A stretch of DNA of 64,000 bases. Origin: Siphonodentalium dalli (Eukaryota > Mollusca > Scaphopoda > Gadilida > Siphonodentaliidae). Positions 12,807 to 55,178 of this stretch are shown in pieces; position 1 is the first letter of the stretch; every line of letters begins with the position of its first letter. Position numbers and translations under genes: made by a program. The stretch lies in assembly GCA_032622095.1 (NCBI GenBank), contig CP136066.1, forward strand, positions 207,350,978 to 207,414,977, written 5' to 3'. Under the pieces are notes generated by a model, which worked only from the letters and a program-made list of their open reading frames with translations, searched no databases and was not told the DNA's origin.

Positions 12807-13060
12807 CAAGCCTTGAAATAGTGTGTCTGTCATTTGCAGCATGAGGTCCCCAGAGGGTGAATTTAGTGATGCTACCCCGCATAGCGGGCTAGTATCACCA
12901 AATTCACCCTCTGGGGACCTCATTCTGCTTACACATCAGCAGAATGAGGTTCCCAGAGTGTGAATTTGGTGATGCTAGCCCGCTATGCGGGGTAGCATCA
13001 CTAAATTCACCCTCTGGGGACCTCATTCTGCAAATGACAGACACACTATTTCAATGCTTG
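12807..13060. mobile_element. HAT-A MITE, compact form
   Basis: About 254 bp. Ends CAAGCCTTGAAATAGTGTG and a decayed complement (TTTCAATGCTTG). It consists almost only of the two arm hairpins joined at acacatcagcag. Confidence 0.8.
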
Positions 13061-17681: not shown

Positions 17682-18116
17682 CAAGCCTAAAAATAGTGTG
17701 TCTGTCATTTGCAGAATGGGGTGCTCAGAAGGTGAATTTAGTGATGCTATCCTGCTAGCATCACCGAATTCACCCGCTGGGAACCTCATTCTGCTTAGGT
17801 CTCATCTTCTGGAAGTATCTATAGTCTCTAATTAACATTGTTTTTAATTACTTTTTCCCTTCTGAGAAGTTTCTATATCCCCTAATATGCAGAAGATAAA
17901 TTGCATAATCGAGGTGACTAATGGGTGAAAATCACATACTTCAACTAGGAAACTTCAATCTGATTCTAGGTCTACCATAGCAGTTGAGGCCTAAGCAGAA
18001 TGAGGTCCCCAGAGGATGAATTTGGTGATACTAGCCTGCTGTGTGGGACATCGTCACTAAATTCACCCTCTGGGAACCTCATTCTGCAAATGACAGACAC
18101 AATATTTGCAGGATTG
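17682..18116. mobile_element. HAT-A MITE with target duplication
   Basis: Starts CAAGCCTAAAAATAGTGTG and ends TTTGCAGGATTG. Flanked by AATACGTGGG on both sides (17672-17681 and 18117-18126), longer than the 8 bp usual for hAT, perhaps by chance extension. Confidence 0.8.
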
Positions 18117-18165
18117 AATACGTGGGTGATTTAGTTTACGATGTATATTACAGGTTCCGACTCAC

Positions 18166-18239
18166 CGATAAGTGGATTCTTTCTGATGTTGAGAACTACA
18201 AGTGTCCTATTTAATTTGAGTACATCAAGAAACAGGTTG
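18166..18239 (-). pseudogene. CEP78: Partial duplicate of the CEP78 LRR exon
   Basis: The minus strand repeats the 3' two-thirds of exon 19380-19493 together with its donor (ATCG|GTGAGTC). The frame is open and reads LFLDVLKLNRTLVVLNIRK followed by NPLI; compared with the main exon it has F to L, T to R and D to N changes. The first 15 codons and the acceptor are missing: homology stops near 18239, and a HAT-A MITE begins at 18254. Donors of the two copies are 1214 bp apart. I infer a decayed tandem exon duplication. Use as an alternative exon is unlikely because no convincing in-phase acceptor is visible. Confidence 0.7.
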
Positions 18240-18253
18240 ATGATGATCCTATC

Positions 18254-18903
18254 CAAGCCTGATTATAGTGTGCCTGTAATTTGCAGAATGAGGTCCCCCA
18301 GAGGGTAAATTTAGTGATGCTACCCTGCAGAGTGGGCTAACATCACCAAATTCACCCTCTGGGGACCTAATTCTGCATGGCCTCATCTGCTATGGGAGAC
18401 ATAGACTCAGTTTGAAGTTCCTAAATGGTCAATATTGCGATGTACACCCATTGGGAACCTCGATTATGCAATATGTCATCTGCCAACTTGGGGATATAGA
18501 AAAACTAAACTAAAAAACAAATTGAATCCCAGAGGGTGAATTTAGTGACGCTATCCCGCACAGCAGGCTAGCATCACCAAATTCACCCTCTGGGGACCTC
18601 ATTCTGCTAAGGCAAACCTACGATCAGATTGAAGTTCCCAGTTGAAGTTGGTGATGTTCACCCATTGGGCACCTCAATTATGAATTTTATCTTCTGCAAA
18701 TTAGGGGATCTAGAAGGGAAATGTAACTAAAAACAATGTTAATTTGATACTATAGATACTTCCCAGAAGATGAGGCCTAAGCAGAATGAGGTCCCCAGAG
18801 GGTGAATTTGGTGATGCTAGCCCACTGTGCGGGATAGCATCACTAAATTCACCCTCTGGGGGACATCATTCTGCAAATGACAGACACGCTATTTGCAGGC
18901 TTG
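18254..18903. mobile_element. HAT-A MITE, long or fused form
   Basis: Ends CAAGCCTGATTATAGTGTG and TTTGCAGGCTTG. Four arm modules are present, with a seam near 18515-18530 (aaaaaacaaattgaatccca). This suggests two copies fused or one internal duplication. Confidence 0.75.
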
Positions 18904-19025: not shown

Positions 19026-19296
19026 TGTCACCTCAAGCCTTGAAATAGTGTGTCCGTCATTTGCAGAATGAGGTTCCCAGAGGGTGAATTTAGTGATGCT
19101 ACCCCGCATAGCGGTCTAGCATCACCAAATTCACCCTCTGGGGACCTCATTCTGCTTACAACTCAGCAGAATGAGGTCCCCAGAGGGAGAATTTGGTGAT
19201 CCTAGCCCGCTATGCGGGGGTAGCATCATTAAATTCACCCTCTGGGGACCTCATTCTGCAAATGACAGGCACACTATTTCAAGGCTTGTGTCACCT
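19026..19296. mobile_element. HAT-A MITE with 8-bp TSD TGTCACCT
   Basis: Compact copy (19034-19288) with ends CAAGCCTTG and CAAGGCTTG, flanked by TGTCACCT at 19026-19033 and 19289-19296. This is the clearest evidence that the family is hAT-like. It lies less than 100 bp from the CEP78 exon donor. Confidence 0.9.
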
Positions 19297-19379: not shown

Positions 19380-19493
19380 CGATAAGTGGATTCTTTCTGA
19401 TGTCGAGAACCACCAGTGTCGTATTAAATTTTAGTACATCAAGAAACAGATTGGCACCTTCACACCCGAGGCCACATATCTGCATGTCCAATG
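19380..19493 (-). CDS. CEP78: CEP78 internal exon (LRR)
   Basis: A 114-nt minus-strand exon. Acceptor ttatatctttatAG|CATTGG just above 19493; donor ATCG|GTGAGTC just below 19380. Phase 1 in (G from the previous exon plus CA gives Ala), phase 1 out. It encodes [20 protein letters not shown], then [18 protein letters not shown]. The ALDxQxCGL..EGA and [15 protein letters not shown] segments match leucine-rich repeats of centrosomal protein 78, a centriole and ciliary-base protein needed for normal cilia. The first 14-odd bases of the exon and its acceptor are also the unit of the adjoining minisatellite, so the true splice site is the last of about 32 near-identical acceptors. A decayed partial copy lies at 18166-18239. 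Confidence 0.85.
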
Positions 19494-20470
19494 CTATAAA
19501 TATAAAACAAACGCATGTCCAATGCTATAAAGATATAACGAACGCATGTCCAATGCTATAAAGATATAATGAATGCATGTCCAATGCTATAAATATAAAA
19601 CAAACGCATGTCCAATGCTATAAAGATATAATGAATGCATGTCCAATGCTATAAAGATATAATGAATGCATGTCCAATGCTATAAAGATATAATGAACGC
19701 ATATCCAATGCTATATAGATATAATGAATGCAAGTCCAATGCTATAAAGATATAATGAACGCATGTCCAATGCTATATAGATATAATGAACGCATGTCCA
19801 ATGCTATATAGATATAATGAATGCATGTCCAATGCTATAGATATAATGAATGCATATCCAATGCTATAAAGATATAATGAATGCATGTCCAATGCTATAT
19901 AGATATAATGAACGCATATCCAATGCTATAAAGACATAATCAATGCATATCCAATGCTATAGATATAATGAATGCATATCCAATGCTATAAAGATATAAT
20001 GAACGCATATCCAATGCTATAAAGACATAATCAATGCATATCCAATGCTATAGATATAATGAATGCATATCCAATGCTATAAAGATATAATGAATGCATA
20101 TCCAATGCTATAAAGATATAATGAACGCATATCCAATGCTATAAAGACATAATCAATGCATATCCAATGCTATAGATATAATGAACGCATATCCAATGCT
20201 ATAAAGATATAATCAATGCATGTCCAATGCTATAAAGATATAATGATTGCATGTCCAATGCTATAAAGATATAATGAATGCATGTCCAATGCTATAAAGA
20301 TATAATGATTGCATGTCCAATGCTATAAAGATATAATGATTGCATGTCCAATGCTATAAAGATATAATGAATGCATGTCCAATGCTATAAAGATATAATG
20401 AATGCATGTCCAATGATATAAAGACATAATCAATGCATGTCCAATGGTATAAAGACATAACAAATTTATA
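19483..20470 (-). repeat. About 31-bp minisatellite built from the CEP78 splice acceptor
   Basis: About 32 units. Read on the minus strand, each is TTATATCTTTATAG|CATTGG plus ACATGCATTCA or close variants (27-31 bp). The unit spans the 3' splice site and first exon bases of exon 19380-19493. Variants include tatatag, acgtt and gacataatc types and shorter units lacking a few bases. The array fills the last kilobase of the upstream intron. Two more units occur inverted at 38573-38640. Confidence 0.92.
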
Positions 20471-20629
20471 CCATAATTGTCTGTTACTGTGTGTGTAACA
20501 CCTATTTTGTAAATTTCAGCTGTGGGTGTAGTAAATGTTTAAATGTCATTTCATGGGTTAAGCATATGAACACCATTATAACTAGTAAATATACTTTAAA
20601 TATGCTGTTCGGACAAATGCAAACTGGTA

Positions 20630-20705
20630 TAAGAGTGAGAAGTCACTTCTCCCTGGAACAAAAATGGGGACAAGTGAAACAATTTAGGGAGAAGATGTCT
20701 CCCAA
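20630..20705. repeat. Dispersed palindromic repeat (agtcacttctccctgg)
   Basis: gagaagtcacttctccctgg ... tttagggagaagatgtctcc. A related copy occupies the window end (63932-64000) and a third lies in the inverted duplicate (38335-38410). Confidence 0.65.
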
Positions 20706-20790
20706 GTCACCCTCTTGACTGGTCCCTGTCTCCCAAGTCACCCTCTTGACTGGTCCCTGTCTCCCAAGTCACCCTCTTGACAGGTCCCAG
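20699..20790. repeat. 31-bp direct repeat, three copies
   Basis: Three copies of tctcccaagtcaccctcttg-actggtccctg. The inverted duplicate at 38283-38345 carries two copies. Confidence 0.85.
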
Positions 20791-20899
20791 TTAGATAGTG
20801 CATGTTTCAGAAAAATTAAAAAGATATAATTTTGATCAAACAGTAGATAGCATATGCATCCAATTGTTAATTTTGGTTAATTAGGTTCTGTAAGCTGCT

Positions 20900-21324
20900 T
20901 TAACCCTTTCAGTGCCAGGGGCCGATCTCATCGGCCCTAATTTACGGTCTGTAAAATCGGCCCTAAAAAAAAAATGCTTAAGCATACTATAGCGAACTTA
21001 AAAACAAACTGGATAAAACCTTAGGGGCATGTTATAATCCAAAACTATCACCAAGTATTCATAGTAATAATTTTGTTGCCCATGAAAACTGTAAGATTCC
21101 CTGGCACTAAACCTACAAAATAAGTTTGTTAAAGAATATAAGAAAAAATTATTAAAATTGTATAAAAAATTTAAAAATAATAACAAATGATGAAAAATTG
21201 TTAGGCCAATGCATTCTCTTATATATGCGAGGCGACCTATGGTCGACTCGCATATATAAGAGAATGCATTGGCACAGGGTATATGGGTTGATACAAAAAT
21301 CGGACCTGGCACTGAAAGTGTTAA
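20900..21324 (-). mobile_element. TTAA-2 MITE
   Basis: TTAA at both sides, TIR CCCTTTCAGTGCCAGG. Contains ggccgatctcatcggccc near one end and the shared hairpin (about 21203-21274) near the other, with an AT-rich spacer. It abuts a TTAA-5 element and shares its TTAA (21321-21324). Near-identical inverted copy at 37756-38168. Confidence 0.85.
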
Positions 21325-23627: not shown

Positions 23628-23802
23628 CTTTGACCCAAAGGTCATCCTTAAGAGCTTCTGCAAGATAAGCAGCTCCTTCATCTCCGATCATGTTGTTGTT
23701 GTTAATGGTGATCCGTCGAATCCCAGACATCCTGTCAAGGTCCGGCCGACGATAACGGAGACTGTCTTTCCAGGCTTCATTGTGTCGTTTAACAGCCTGA
23801 TG
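23628..23802 (-). CDS. CEP78: CEP78 internal exon (LRR domain)
   Basis: A 175-nt minus-strand exon. Acceptor ctctcttgtAG|CATCAG just above 23802; donor GTCAAAG|GTTAGTTT just below 23628. Phase 0 in, phase 1 out, 58 full codons without a stop. It begins HQAVKRHNEAWKDSLRYRRP, continues DLDRMSGIRRITINNNNMIG and DEGAAYLAEALKDDLWVK. The SLRYRRPDLD block, the following LRRIT-type strand, IGDxGA and DLW are hallmarks of CEP78 as I know it from vertebrates. CEP78 is a leucine-rich-repeat protein of the centriole wall and distal appendage region that acts in ciliogenesis and ubiquitin-ligase control at the centrosome. The exon directly continues into 19380-19493 across a 4134-bp intron. Upstream exons were searched for by eye up to 64000 and not found. 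Confidence 0.88.
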
Positions 23803-37755: not shown

Positions 37756-38168
37756 TTAACCCTTTCAGTGCCAGGTCCGATTTTTGTATCAACCCATATA
37801 CCCTGTGCCAATGCATTCTCTTATATATGCGAGTCGACCATAGGTCGCCTCGCATATATAAGAGAATGCATTGGCCTAACAATTTTTCATCATTTGTTAT
37901 TATTTTTATAAAAAAAATTAAAAAAATTTCTTATATTCTTTAACAGACTTATTTTGTAGGTTTAGTGCCAGGGAATCTTAGTTTTCATGGGCAACAAAAT
38001 TATTACTATGAATACTTGGTGATAGTTTTGGATTATAACATGCCCCTAAGGTTTTATCCAGTTTGTTTTTAAGTTCGCTATAGTATGCTTAAGCATTTTT
38101 TTTTAGGGCCGATTTTACAGACCGTAAATTAGGGCCGATGAGATCGGCCCCTGGCACTGAAAGGGTTA
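37756..38168 (+). mobile_element. TTAA-2 MITE (inverted copy of 20900-21324)
   Basis: TTAA both sides, TIR CCCTTTCAGTGCCAGG, hairpin at about 37806-37875. Internal sequence (agtgccagggaatct, ataacatgcccctaaggttt) is almost identical to the complement of 20900-21324. Confidence 0.88.
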
Positions 38169-38640
38169 AAGCAGCTTACAGAACCTAATTAACCAAAATT
38201 AACAATTGGATGCATATGCTATCTACTGTTTGATCAAAATTATATCTTTTTAATTTTTCTGAAACATGTACTATCTAACTGGGACCTGTCAAGAGGGCGA
38301 CTTGGGAAACAGGGACCTGTCAAGAGGGCGACTTGGGAGACATCTTCTCCCTAAATTGTGTCACTTCTCCCCATTTTTATTCCAGGGAGAAGTGACTTCT
38401 CACTCTTATACCAGTTTGCATTTGTCCGAACAGCATATTTAAAGTATATTTACTAGTTATAATGGTGTTCATATGCTTAACCCATGAAATGACATTTAAA
38501 CATTTACACCCACAGCTGAAATTTACAAAATAGGTGTTTCAGACACAGTAACAGACAATTATGGTATAAATTTGTTATATCTTTATAGCATTGGACATGC
38601 ATTCATTATATCTTTATAGCATTGGACATGCATTCATTAT
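38169..38640. repeat. Inverted duplicate of CEP78 intron DNA with two minisatellite units
   Basis: Reverse complement of about 20450-20900: aagcagcttacagaacctaa, agagggcgacttgggaga repeats, and cccacagctgaaatttacaa, ending in two units of the CEP78 acceptor minisatellite (atatctttatagcattggac). The homology to the CEP78 side therefore runs continuously through the TTAA-2 MITE, the intron flank and into the array, then stops before the exon body. Confidence 0.88.
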
Positions 38641-39017
38641 TAAAATTTTTAAAAATTGTAAAAAATAATAACAAATGATTTGTTATTATTTTTTTTTTTT
38701 AATTTTAAAATTTTAATAATTTTTTCTTATATTCTTTAACAGACTTATTTTGTAGGTTTAGTGCCAGGGAATGTTACGTTTTTCATAGGCATCAAAATTA
38801 TTACTATACTTGGTGATAGTTTTAAGTTATAACATGCCCCTAAGATTTTATCCAGTTTGTTTTTAAATTCGCTATAGCATGCTTAAGCATACCCAAAAAT
38901 AATTCAACCCAAAAAAATCTAAAAAAAAATAATTTTAATTTAAATTTTTTTTTAGGGCCGATTTTACAGACCGTCAATTAGGGCCGATGAGATCGTCCCT
39001 GGCACTGAAAGGGTTAA
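38641..39017 (+). mobile_element. TTAA-2 MITE, left end lost at a palindromic junction
   Basis: Right part complete (gggccgatgagatcg ... CTGGCACTGAAAGGG-TTAA). The left part begins in a palindrome (aataataacaaatga/tttgttattatt, about 38666-38695), so the hairpin half is replaced by an inverted copy of the spacer. Confidence 0.75.
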
Positions 39018-52851: not shown

Positions 52852-55178
52852 ATTATAATGAGAAATGCGCTCCATATAGCTAACGTTCTGCGTATGTGTT
52901 AGTATGATGTCATCTGCCATCGGGAGCAAAATGGAAGTATCTATATATGAGAAATGCGCTCCATACAGATAACGTTCTGCGTATGTGTTAGTATGATGTC
53001 ATCTGCCATCCGGAGCAAAATGGAAGTATCTATATATGAGAAACCCGCTCCATACAGCTAACGTTCTGTGTATGTGTTAGTATGATGTCATCTGCCATCC
53101 GGAGCAAAATGGAAGTATCTATATATGAGAAATGCGCTCCATACAGCTAACGTTCTGCGTATGTGTTAGTATGATGTCATCTGCCATCCGGAGCAAAATG
53201 GAAGTATCTATATATGAGAAATGCGCTCCATACAGCTAACGTTCTGCGTATGTGTTAGTATGATGTCATCTGCCATCCGGAGCAAAATGGAAGTATCTAT
53301 ATATGAGAAATGCGCTCCATACAGCTAACGTTCTGCGTATGTGTTAGTATGATGTCATCTGCCATCCGGAGCAAAATGGAAGTATCTATATAATGAGAAA
53401 CGCACTCCATACAGCTAACGTTCTGCGTATGTGTTAGTATGATGTCATCTGCCATCCGGAGCAAAATGGAAGTATCTATATATGAGAAATGCGCTCCATA
53501 CAGCTAACGTTCTGCGTATGTGTTAGTATGATGTCATCTGCCATCGGGAGCAAAATGGAAGTATCTATATATGAGAAATGCGCTCCATACAGATAACGTT
53601 CTGCGTATGTGTTAGTATGATGTCATCTGCCATCCGGAGCAAAATAGAAGTATCTATATATGAGAAATGCGCTCCATACAGATAACGTTCTGCGTATGTG
53701 TTAGTATGATGTCATCTGCCATCGGGAGCAAAATGGAAGTATCTATATATGAGAAATGCGCTCCATACAGATAACGTTCTGCGTATGTGTTAGTATGATG
53801 TCATCTGCCATCCGGAGCAAAATGGAAGTATCTATATATGAGAAATGCGCTCCATACAGATAACGTTCTGCGTATGTGTTAGTATGATGTCATCTGCCAT
53901 CCGGAGAAAAATGGAAGTATCTATATATGAGAAATGCGCTCCATACAGCTAACGTTCTGAATATGTGTTAGTATGATGTCATCTGCCATCCGGAGCAAAA
54001 TGAAAGTATCTATATATGAGAAATGCGCTCCATACAGATAACGTTCTGCGTATGTGTTAGTATGATGTCATCTGCCATCCGGAGCAAAATGGATGTATCT
54101 ATATATGAGAAATGCGCTCCATACAGCTAACGTTCTGCGTATGTGTTAGTATGATGTCATCTGCCATCCGGAGCAAAATGGAAGTACTAGTATCTATATA
54201 TGAGAAATGCGCTCCATACAGATAACGTTCTGCGTATGTGTTAGTATGATGTCGTCTGCCATCGGGAGCAAAATGGAAGTATCTATATATGAGAAATGCG
54301 CCCCATACAGATAACGTTCTGCGTATGTGTTAGTATGATGTCATCTGCCATCCGGAGCAAAATGGAAGTATCTATATATGAGAAATGCGCTCCATACAGC
54401 TAACCTTCTGCGTATGTGTTAGTATGATGTCATCTGCCATCCGGAGCAAAATGGAAGTATCTATATATGAGAAATGCGCTCCATACAGATAACGTTCTGC
54501 GTATGTGTTAGTATGATGTCATCTGCCATCCGGAGCAAAATAGAAGTATCTATATATGAGAAATGCGCTCCATACAGATAACGTTCTGCGTATGTGTTAG
54601 TATGATGTCATCTGCCATCGGGAGCAAAATGGAAGTATCTATATATGAGAAATGCGCTCCATACAGATAACGTTCTGCGTATGTGTTAGTATGATGTCAT
54701 CTGCCATCGGGAGCAAAATGGAAGTATCTATATATGAGAAATGCGCTCCATACAGATAACGTTCTGCGTATGTGTTAGTATGATGTCATCTGCCATCCGG
54801 AGCAAAATGGATGTATCTATATATGAGAAATGCGCTCCATACAGCTAACGTTCTGCGTATGTGTTAGTATGATGTCATCTGCCATCCGGAGCAAAATGGA
54901 AGTATCTATATATGAGAAATGCGCTCCATACAGATAACGTTCTGCGTATGTGTTAGTATGATGTCGTCTGCCATCGGGAGCAAAATGGAAGTATCTATAT
55001 ATGAGAAATGCGCCCCATACAGATAACGTTCTGCGTATGTGTTAGTATGATGTCATCTGCCATCCGGAGCAAAATGGAAGTATCTATATATGAGAAATGC
55101 GCTCCATACAGCTAACGTTCTGCGTATGTGTTAGTATCATGTCATCTGCCATCCGGAGCAAAATGGAAGTATCTATAT
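52852..55178. repeat. 89-bp minisatellite, about 26 units, with 8-unit higher-order repeat
   Basis: Unit: tatctatatatgagaaatgc, gctccatacagctaacgttc, tgcgtatgtgttagtatgat, gtcatctgccatccggagca, aaatggaag. Alternative states gataac/gctaac, cgggagc/ccggagc, cgccccat/cgctccat, gtcgtctg/gtcatctg and ggatgt/ggaagt tag individual units. The block starting ggatgt at 54091 is followed by the same ordered set of variants as the block at 54809, 718 bp (8 units plus a 6-bp insert) later. Flanks show no genes. Confidence 0.95.

Follow-up and report, generated by a model that had tools for sequence, protein, structure and literature searches.

How is the start of an exon recognised when its acceptor has been multiplied into some thirty near-identical copies, and do the surplus copies serve any purpose? 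The question is raised by a minisatellite that ends on an exon of CEP78 in the scaphopod Siphonodentalium dalli. We analysed it in its surroundings, a stretch of 64,000 nucleotides (contig CP136066.1, positions 207,350,978 to 207,414,977) that is called the window throughout and to which coordinates refer unless a contig or a locus is named, and we compared it with the rest of the genome.

A CEP78 exon preceded by an array of acceptors

CEP78 was searched for, both in the window and in the whole genome, with a human CEP78 sequence as the query. Across the 2.23-Gb genome, this query found six ordered places on the minus strand of contig C6, from 207500021 to 207370474, four of them with E values of 1.7e-7 or lower and the other two weak (E 0.44 and 0.81), and its best match away from this locus reached E 0.0125. 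All six exons read have open frames, and the four that lie outside the window carry AG and GT at their ends, as judged by eye. About 130 kb separate the first exon from the exon that carries the array, which we call Ea. The following exons of the window matter here:

23628-23802, minus strand: upstream CEP78 exon, 175 nt, with a phase that fits both Ea and Eb
19380-19493, minus strand: CEP78 exon Ea, 114 nt, part of the leucine-rich repeats, donor GTGAGT at 19379-19374
18166-18258, minus strand: exon Eb, 93 nt, in frame, with its own AG and GTGAGT and no array in front

Compared with the human sequence, the upstream exon is 54.8% identical over 62 residues and Ea is 63% identical over 46 residues (E 7e-12). 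The upstream exon ends in ..DDLWVK plus a G, the first base of a codon, which Ea continues with CA TTG GAC ATG CAG ATA TGT. As an alternative start of Ea we considered TGCAG/ATATG, 14 nt inside the exon, and rejected it: because the residues that precede it, LDMQ, align with LDLQ of the human protein, and because the phase fits, the CATTGG start was kept as the acceptor of Ea. A hairpin at this start (GCAT..ATGC, -2.5 kcal/mol) was dismissed as too weak. Further downstream, a weak C-terminal CEP78 match at C6 207336091-207336204 (E 0.0029) contains one TGA in the stretch; if it is counted, the gene would span about 164 kb, and no CEP78 exon was found between Ea and this match. From these searches, CEP78 looks single-copy, and the set of exons read here looks incomplete downstream of Ea.

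Tandem Repeats Finder (TRF) placed the array at 19481-20460, with a period of 31, 31.9 copies, 91% match and a score of 1547. On the minus strand we counted 32 copies of CATTGG, spaced 31 nt apart at 27 intervals and 29 nt apart at the other four, and the last copy (19493) is the start of Ea. AG precedes 30 of the 32 copies and is thus kept by many units but not by all; the two most distal copies have AC (20446) and AT (20415) instead. The parts of the array are as follows:

19494-20446, minus strand: minisatellite array of 31 units, consensus CATTGGACATGCATTCATTATATCTTTATAG
20447-20465, minus strand: 19-nt intron flank that matches the intron part of the unit and at which similarity to the unit stops

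Besides the AG of the real exon, the array holds 29 extra AG acceptors. Each unit joins a copy of 12 nt of exon to a copy of 19 nt of intron, so that the repeat spans the exon/intron boundary, with this boundary placed by sequence and phase. The first-pass annotation had described about 32 tandem sites in units of roughly 31 bp, made of an acceptor plus the start of the exon, seeded on the exon boundary and closed by the real exon start; these counts, the unit composition, the phase with exon 23628-23802 and the CEP78 alignment all bear it out.

The units are not equally related to one another. Those three apart are the most alike (mean lag-3 distance 2.07 versus 2.96 when shuffled, a value reached in 1 of 5000 shuffles), and the longest exact direct repeat in the array is 103 nt at an offset of 91. 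At the edges, AG is absent from the first two copies, and the final two units depart from the consensus, yet the last equals unit 28. Variable columns make up 2 of the 12 positions in the exon part of the unit and 9 of the 19 in its intron part (permutation p 0.07), a weak difference that would fit constraint on the exon part or its conversion with the real exon. Similarity to the unit ends at ATTTG upstream of the array and at ATGC/AG downstream, and therefore a single 31-bp duplication across the acceptor would suffice to seed it; the flank at 20447-20465 is probably the original acceptor region.

Only the exon-proximal acceptor keeps the frame

When the upstream exon 23628-23802 was spliced in silico to each CATTGG, only the last one kept an open frame. 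All 31 others, 29 of which have AG, led to a stop after 5-40 codons, and at the neighbouring unit 31 nt upstream we recovered the frameshift and the TGA inside the exon that the first-pass annotation had pointed out. The acceptor that keeps the frame is not conspicuous among its neighbours. In a tract of 16 nt it has 11 T, tied with unit 28, versus 8-9 in the other 28 AG units, but many units share its pyrimidine fraction of 0.75, and most surpass its longest pyrimidine run of 4 with one of 5. Since these tract measures hardly beat those of the other units, the sequence alone singles out the real acceptor only weakly. Its closeness to an intact exon with a GTGAGT donor would then be the reason why the exon-proximal AG is used.

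That the real site barely surpasses its competitors counts against reading the array as tolerated. In the foremost alternative, the array acceptors would be used in part, the resulting transcripts would meet stops and decay, and the length of the array would tune the dosage of CEP78; the first-pass annotation had already suggested that such arrays could influence CEP78 dosage or differ among individuals. The similar short tracts in front of the 29 surplus AGs would suit such unproductive splicing, as would possible branch points, which we found as TTTAT (32-34 nt upstream) in 22 and as TTCAT (12-14 nt upstream) in 20 of the 30 AG units, and so would the stop codon to which every surplus site leads. 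However, this stop is nearly automatic, because the period of 31 is not divisible by 3 and TAG closes nearly every unit. In addition, comparable repeats in amphioxus, discussed below, are reported not to disturb splicing (PMC3087553). Altogether, we regard this alternative as unlikely. A bolder version holds that some 30 decoy acceptors in an array of variable length would make the share of CEP78 pre-mRNA that is lost through use of array acceptors rise with copy number, and that boundary arrays would be a general source of heritable expression variation in this genome; we find it slightly less credible still, but if it were true, how much of a centrosome protein is made would be set by a hypervariable minisatellite.

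A duplicated exon and an inverted copy of the array

Exon Eb is a duplicate of Ea that is 7 codons shorter and differs from it, over 24 codons, by 4 synonymous and 3 amino-acid codon changes. Having AG and GTGAGT and being in frame with exon 23628-23802, Eb might replace Ea or alternate with it, so that the array would be bypassed. Against this, 7 leucine-rich-repeat codons are missing from Eb, 3 of the 7 codon differences change the amino acid, which suggests decay, and Ea is the better match to human CEP78 (E 7e-12 versus 0.001). We therefore doubt strongly that Eb offers a way around the array; we take it as a decaying duplicate of Ea and consider a role as an alternative exon improbable.

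A 20-nt core of the unit, CTTTATAGCATTGGACATGC, was searched for across the whole genome. With 0-1 mismatches it gave 29 matches, of which 27 lie in the array and two at 38575-38640. With 2 mismatches there were 18 single matches outside the array and this copy, none near another, and a backwards control gave 1; the 18 are presumably chance matches or dispersed repeats. Other arrays were rejected as relatives: of four matches at 66-67% identity (L003-L006), the three that were run through TRF show unrelated units (22/38 bp in L003, 16 bp in L004 and 11 bp in L006). The two units at 38575-38640 belong to a larger structure, which is related to a miniature inverted-repeat element (MITE) upstream of the array:

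20900-21324, minus strand: MITE T, with TTAA ends and the inverted termini CCTTTCAGTGCCAGG and CCTGGCACTGAAAGG
37756-39017, plus strand: inverted composite copy made of MITE T', an intron copy, two array units and MITE T''
37756-38169, plus strand: MITE T' of the composite, with TTAA and inverted termini
38575-38640, plus strand: the two array units of the composite, which follow a copy of intron 20461-20899
38675-39017, plus strand: truncated MITE T'', of the same family and orientation as MITE T', ending in GGGTTAA

MITE T is a member of a repeat family, its first 221 bases matching at least 39 further places among the 40 of 3894 candidates that were scored, and by its features we take it to be piggyBac-like. 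The segment 37756-38640, which sits in the preceding CEP78 intron, repeats 20395-21324 in inverted orientation, with 861 of the 930 aligned columns identical. Between the original and the composite, the intron segment and first unit differ at 13 of 432 aligned bases, gaps not counted, and the inverted copy is therefore fairly recent. Both units of the composite keep AG, whereas the corresponding original units lack it; either the original later lost two AGs, or the copy lost two units. The whole of 37756-39017 would be explained by composite transposition of piggyBac type.

That two units and the neighbouring intron are found in this inverted copy between MITEs could suggest that the array itself is part of a mobile element inserted at the exon, but this is very improbable: the unit holds CEP78 coding sequence, its 20-nt core at 0-1 mismatches is confined in the whole genome to the array and the inverted copy, the intron segment 20461-20899 was matched at two places only among the 40 of 3894 candidates scored, and the MITE pair seems to have carried a piece of the locus rather than the reverse.

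Other repeats of the window deserve mention in their own right. The inverted pair 37756-38640 and 20395-21324 (93% alike) lies in the introns that flank exon 23628-23802, an arrangement that could favour circular RNA or exon skipping. A palindromic repeat (GCAGAATGAGGTCCCCAGAGGG...) is very abundant in the window (12836-13031, 17682-18120, 19063-19259 and many more), lies close to Ea and Eb, and by eye is also present in the CEP78 intron of locus L010. At 52854-55178 there is an 89-bp minisatellite of 26.1 copies with 96% match.

Boundary-spanning duplications recur in this genome

We surveyed 84 exon loci, which form 47 sequence clusters and comprise the best-scoring matches to dynein (30 of 83), myosin (30 of 80) and kinesin (24 of 103), taken from match lists that are themselves partial (103 of 110 dynein, 65 of 513 myosin and 122 of 213 kinesin candidates scored). 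The edge of an exon was taken as the end of the domain match +/- 30 nt and stands for a putative splice site. Tandem duplications cover 8.9% of the intronic flank bases of the 84 loci. They touch 4 of the 168 exon edges, whereas 1665 of 16800 random intronic positions (9.9%) lie no more than 30 nt from such a duplication. The four touched edges represent three sequence clusters, and one case (L012) is uncertain:

L017, dynein, acceptor side, 1760-2295: unit of 263-271 bp present in two copies, which takes in roughly 8 nt from the start of the exon, with an intact extra TTTCCAG
L047, myosin, donor side, 1279-1594: the exon's final 62 nt plus the donor GTAGG, repeated at 67 bp
L049, myosin paralogue of L047, donor side, 1608-1756: the exon's final 62 nt plus GTAGG, repeated at 67 bp
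L012, dynein, 1435-1545: degenerate copies at 67 bp near the exon start, acceptor not fixed, uncertain

Two further loci, L019 and L024, were not counted, as they have self-repeats near the exon but no adjacent copies; by eye, L019 is a dispersed palindromic repeat. Several genes of this one genome are affected (L017, L047 and L049, with L012 degenerate), so boundary-spanning repeats recur here, about four times more rarely than the intronic rate; this rate is rough, since the edges were taken from domain matches and related loci are not independent. The myosin set is redundant, with one cluster of 24 loci of which two have the duplication. A deficit at exon edges is as expected if selection removes most such duplications. 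The claim that arrays of this sort are unusual is not supported by this small survey and the literature: duplications at boundaries occur in three clusters among the 84 loci, one of them uncertain, and published examples exist in amphioxus.

The survey also brought up a feature of the myosin genes. At C4:274.2-275.5 Mb one myosin head exon is present in 11 similar copies, and further copies lie on C4 at about 172, 221-224 and 289-292 Mb, which suggests that myosin heavy chain genes form a large, clustered family.

Relation to known systems and a probable origin

In amphioxus, minisatellite-like repeats across exon/intron boundaries go by the name of mirages and are described for Adh3, the globins Gb6 (acceptor side) and Gb9, troponin C (TnC) and PGBD5 (PMC3087553, PMC3902484). 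The authors of the first report take Adh3 data and globin RT-PCR to suggest that regular splicing is undisturbed, though many units keep AG/GT (PMC3087553). The CEP78 array resembles the Gb6 mirage as outlined there, in which the repeat includes the 3' end of the intron and the 5' part of exon 2, and it resembles amphioxus mirages more generally in that many but not all units keep AG/GT and several genes of one genome carry them (PMC3087553, PMC3902484). It differs in having 31 extra copies, compared with the 6 and 3 units given for two Gb6 haplotypes; its 31-bp unit is far shorter than that of Gb6 (150-160 bp) and lies within the Adh3 range of 10-72 bp. The genomic setting is also unlike that of amphioxus, as the present genome has 2.23 Gb in 9 contigs and amphioxus genomes are much smaller.

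Two other systems invite comparison. NAGNAG tandem acceptors, in which AGs stand 3 nt apart, likewise place competing AGs before one exon. In the CEP78 array, however, the CATTGG copies are spaced 29-31 nt apart, so the array falls outside this class; it has 30 sites and does not preserve the frame. In IFI6 (6-16), a minisatellite gives rise to multiple splice donor sites (Turri 1995, as cited in PMC4526556). There, too, the units repeat a splice site beside one exon, but on the donor side and with units said to be used as alternative donors, whereas the CEP78 array lies on the acceptor side and only its last unit gives an open frame. More broadly, internal tandem repeats are described as modifying human genes, exon-intron boundaries included (PMC2812944). 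Among titles and the openings of abstracts, with few subscription papers covered, we recognised no further report of boundary-spanning minisatellites.

Taken together, we consider it likely that the array is a CEP78 minisatellite of the mirage type, a tolerated by-product of frequent tandem duplication rather than a functional element, in which the exon-proximal AG is used. It would have been seeded by one 31-bp tandem duplication that took in 19 nt at the 3' end of a CEP78 intron together with the 12 nt that open the following exon, and would have grown to 31 extra copies partly through duplications of three units (about 91-93 bp). The spliceosome would use the AG immediately adjoining the exon, which is intact and has a GTGAGT donor. 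A transcript spliced to another unit would run into a stop after some 5-40 codons, and nonsense-mediated decay would probably remove it, leaving the array presumably neutral. A neutral array need not have kept AG in 30 of 32 copies, but recent homogenisation explains why it has.

The CEP78 array is thus a real and large example of the mirage kind already described, in a genome where this kind recurs. It offers a natural test of the choice of a 3' splice site among about 30 near-identical ones, only one of which keeps the frame. Intron gain by tandem duplication is reportedly the subject of published work, and the array bears on models in which splice sites are duplicated in this way. Seen alongside the dynein and myosin duplications, it suggests that lancelets are not peculiar in having boundary-spanning minisatellites, which may appear wherever tandem duplication is frequent.
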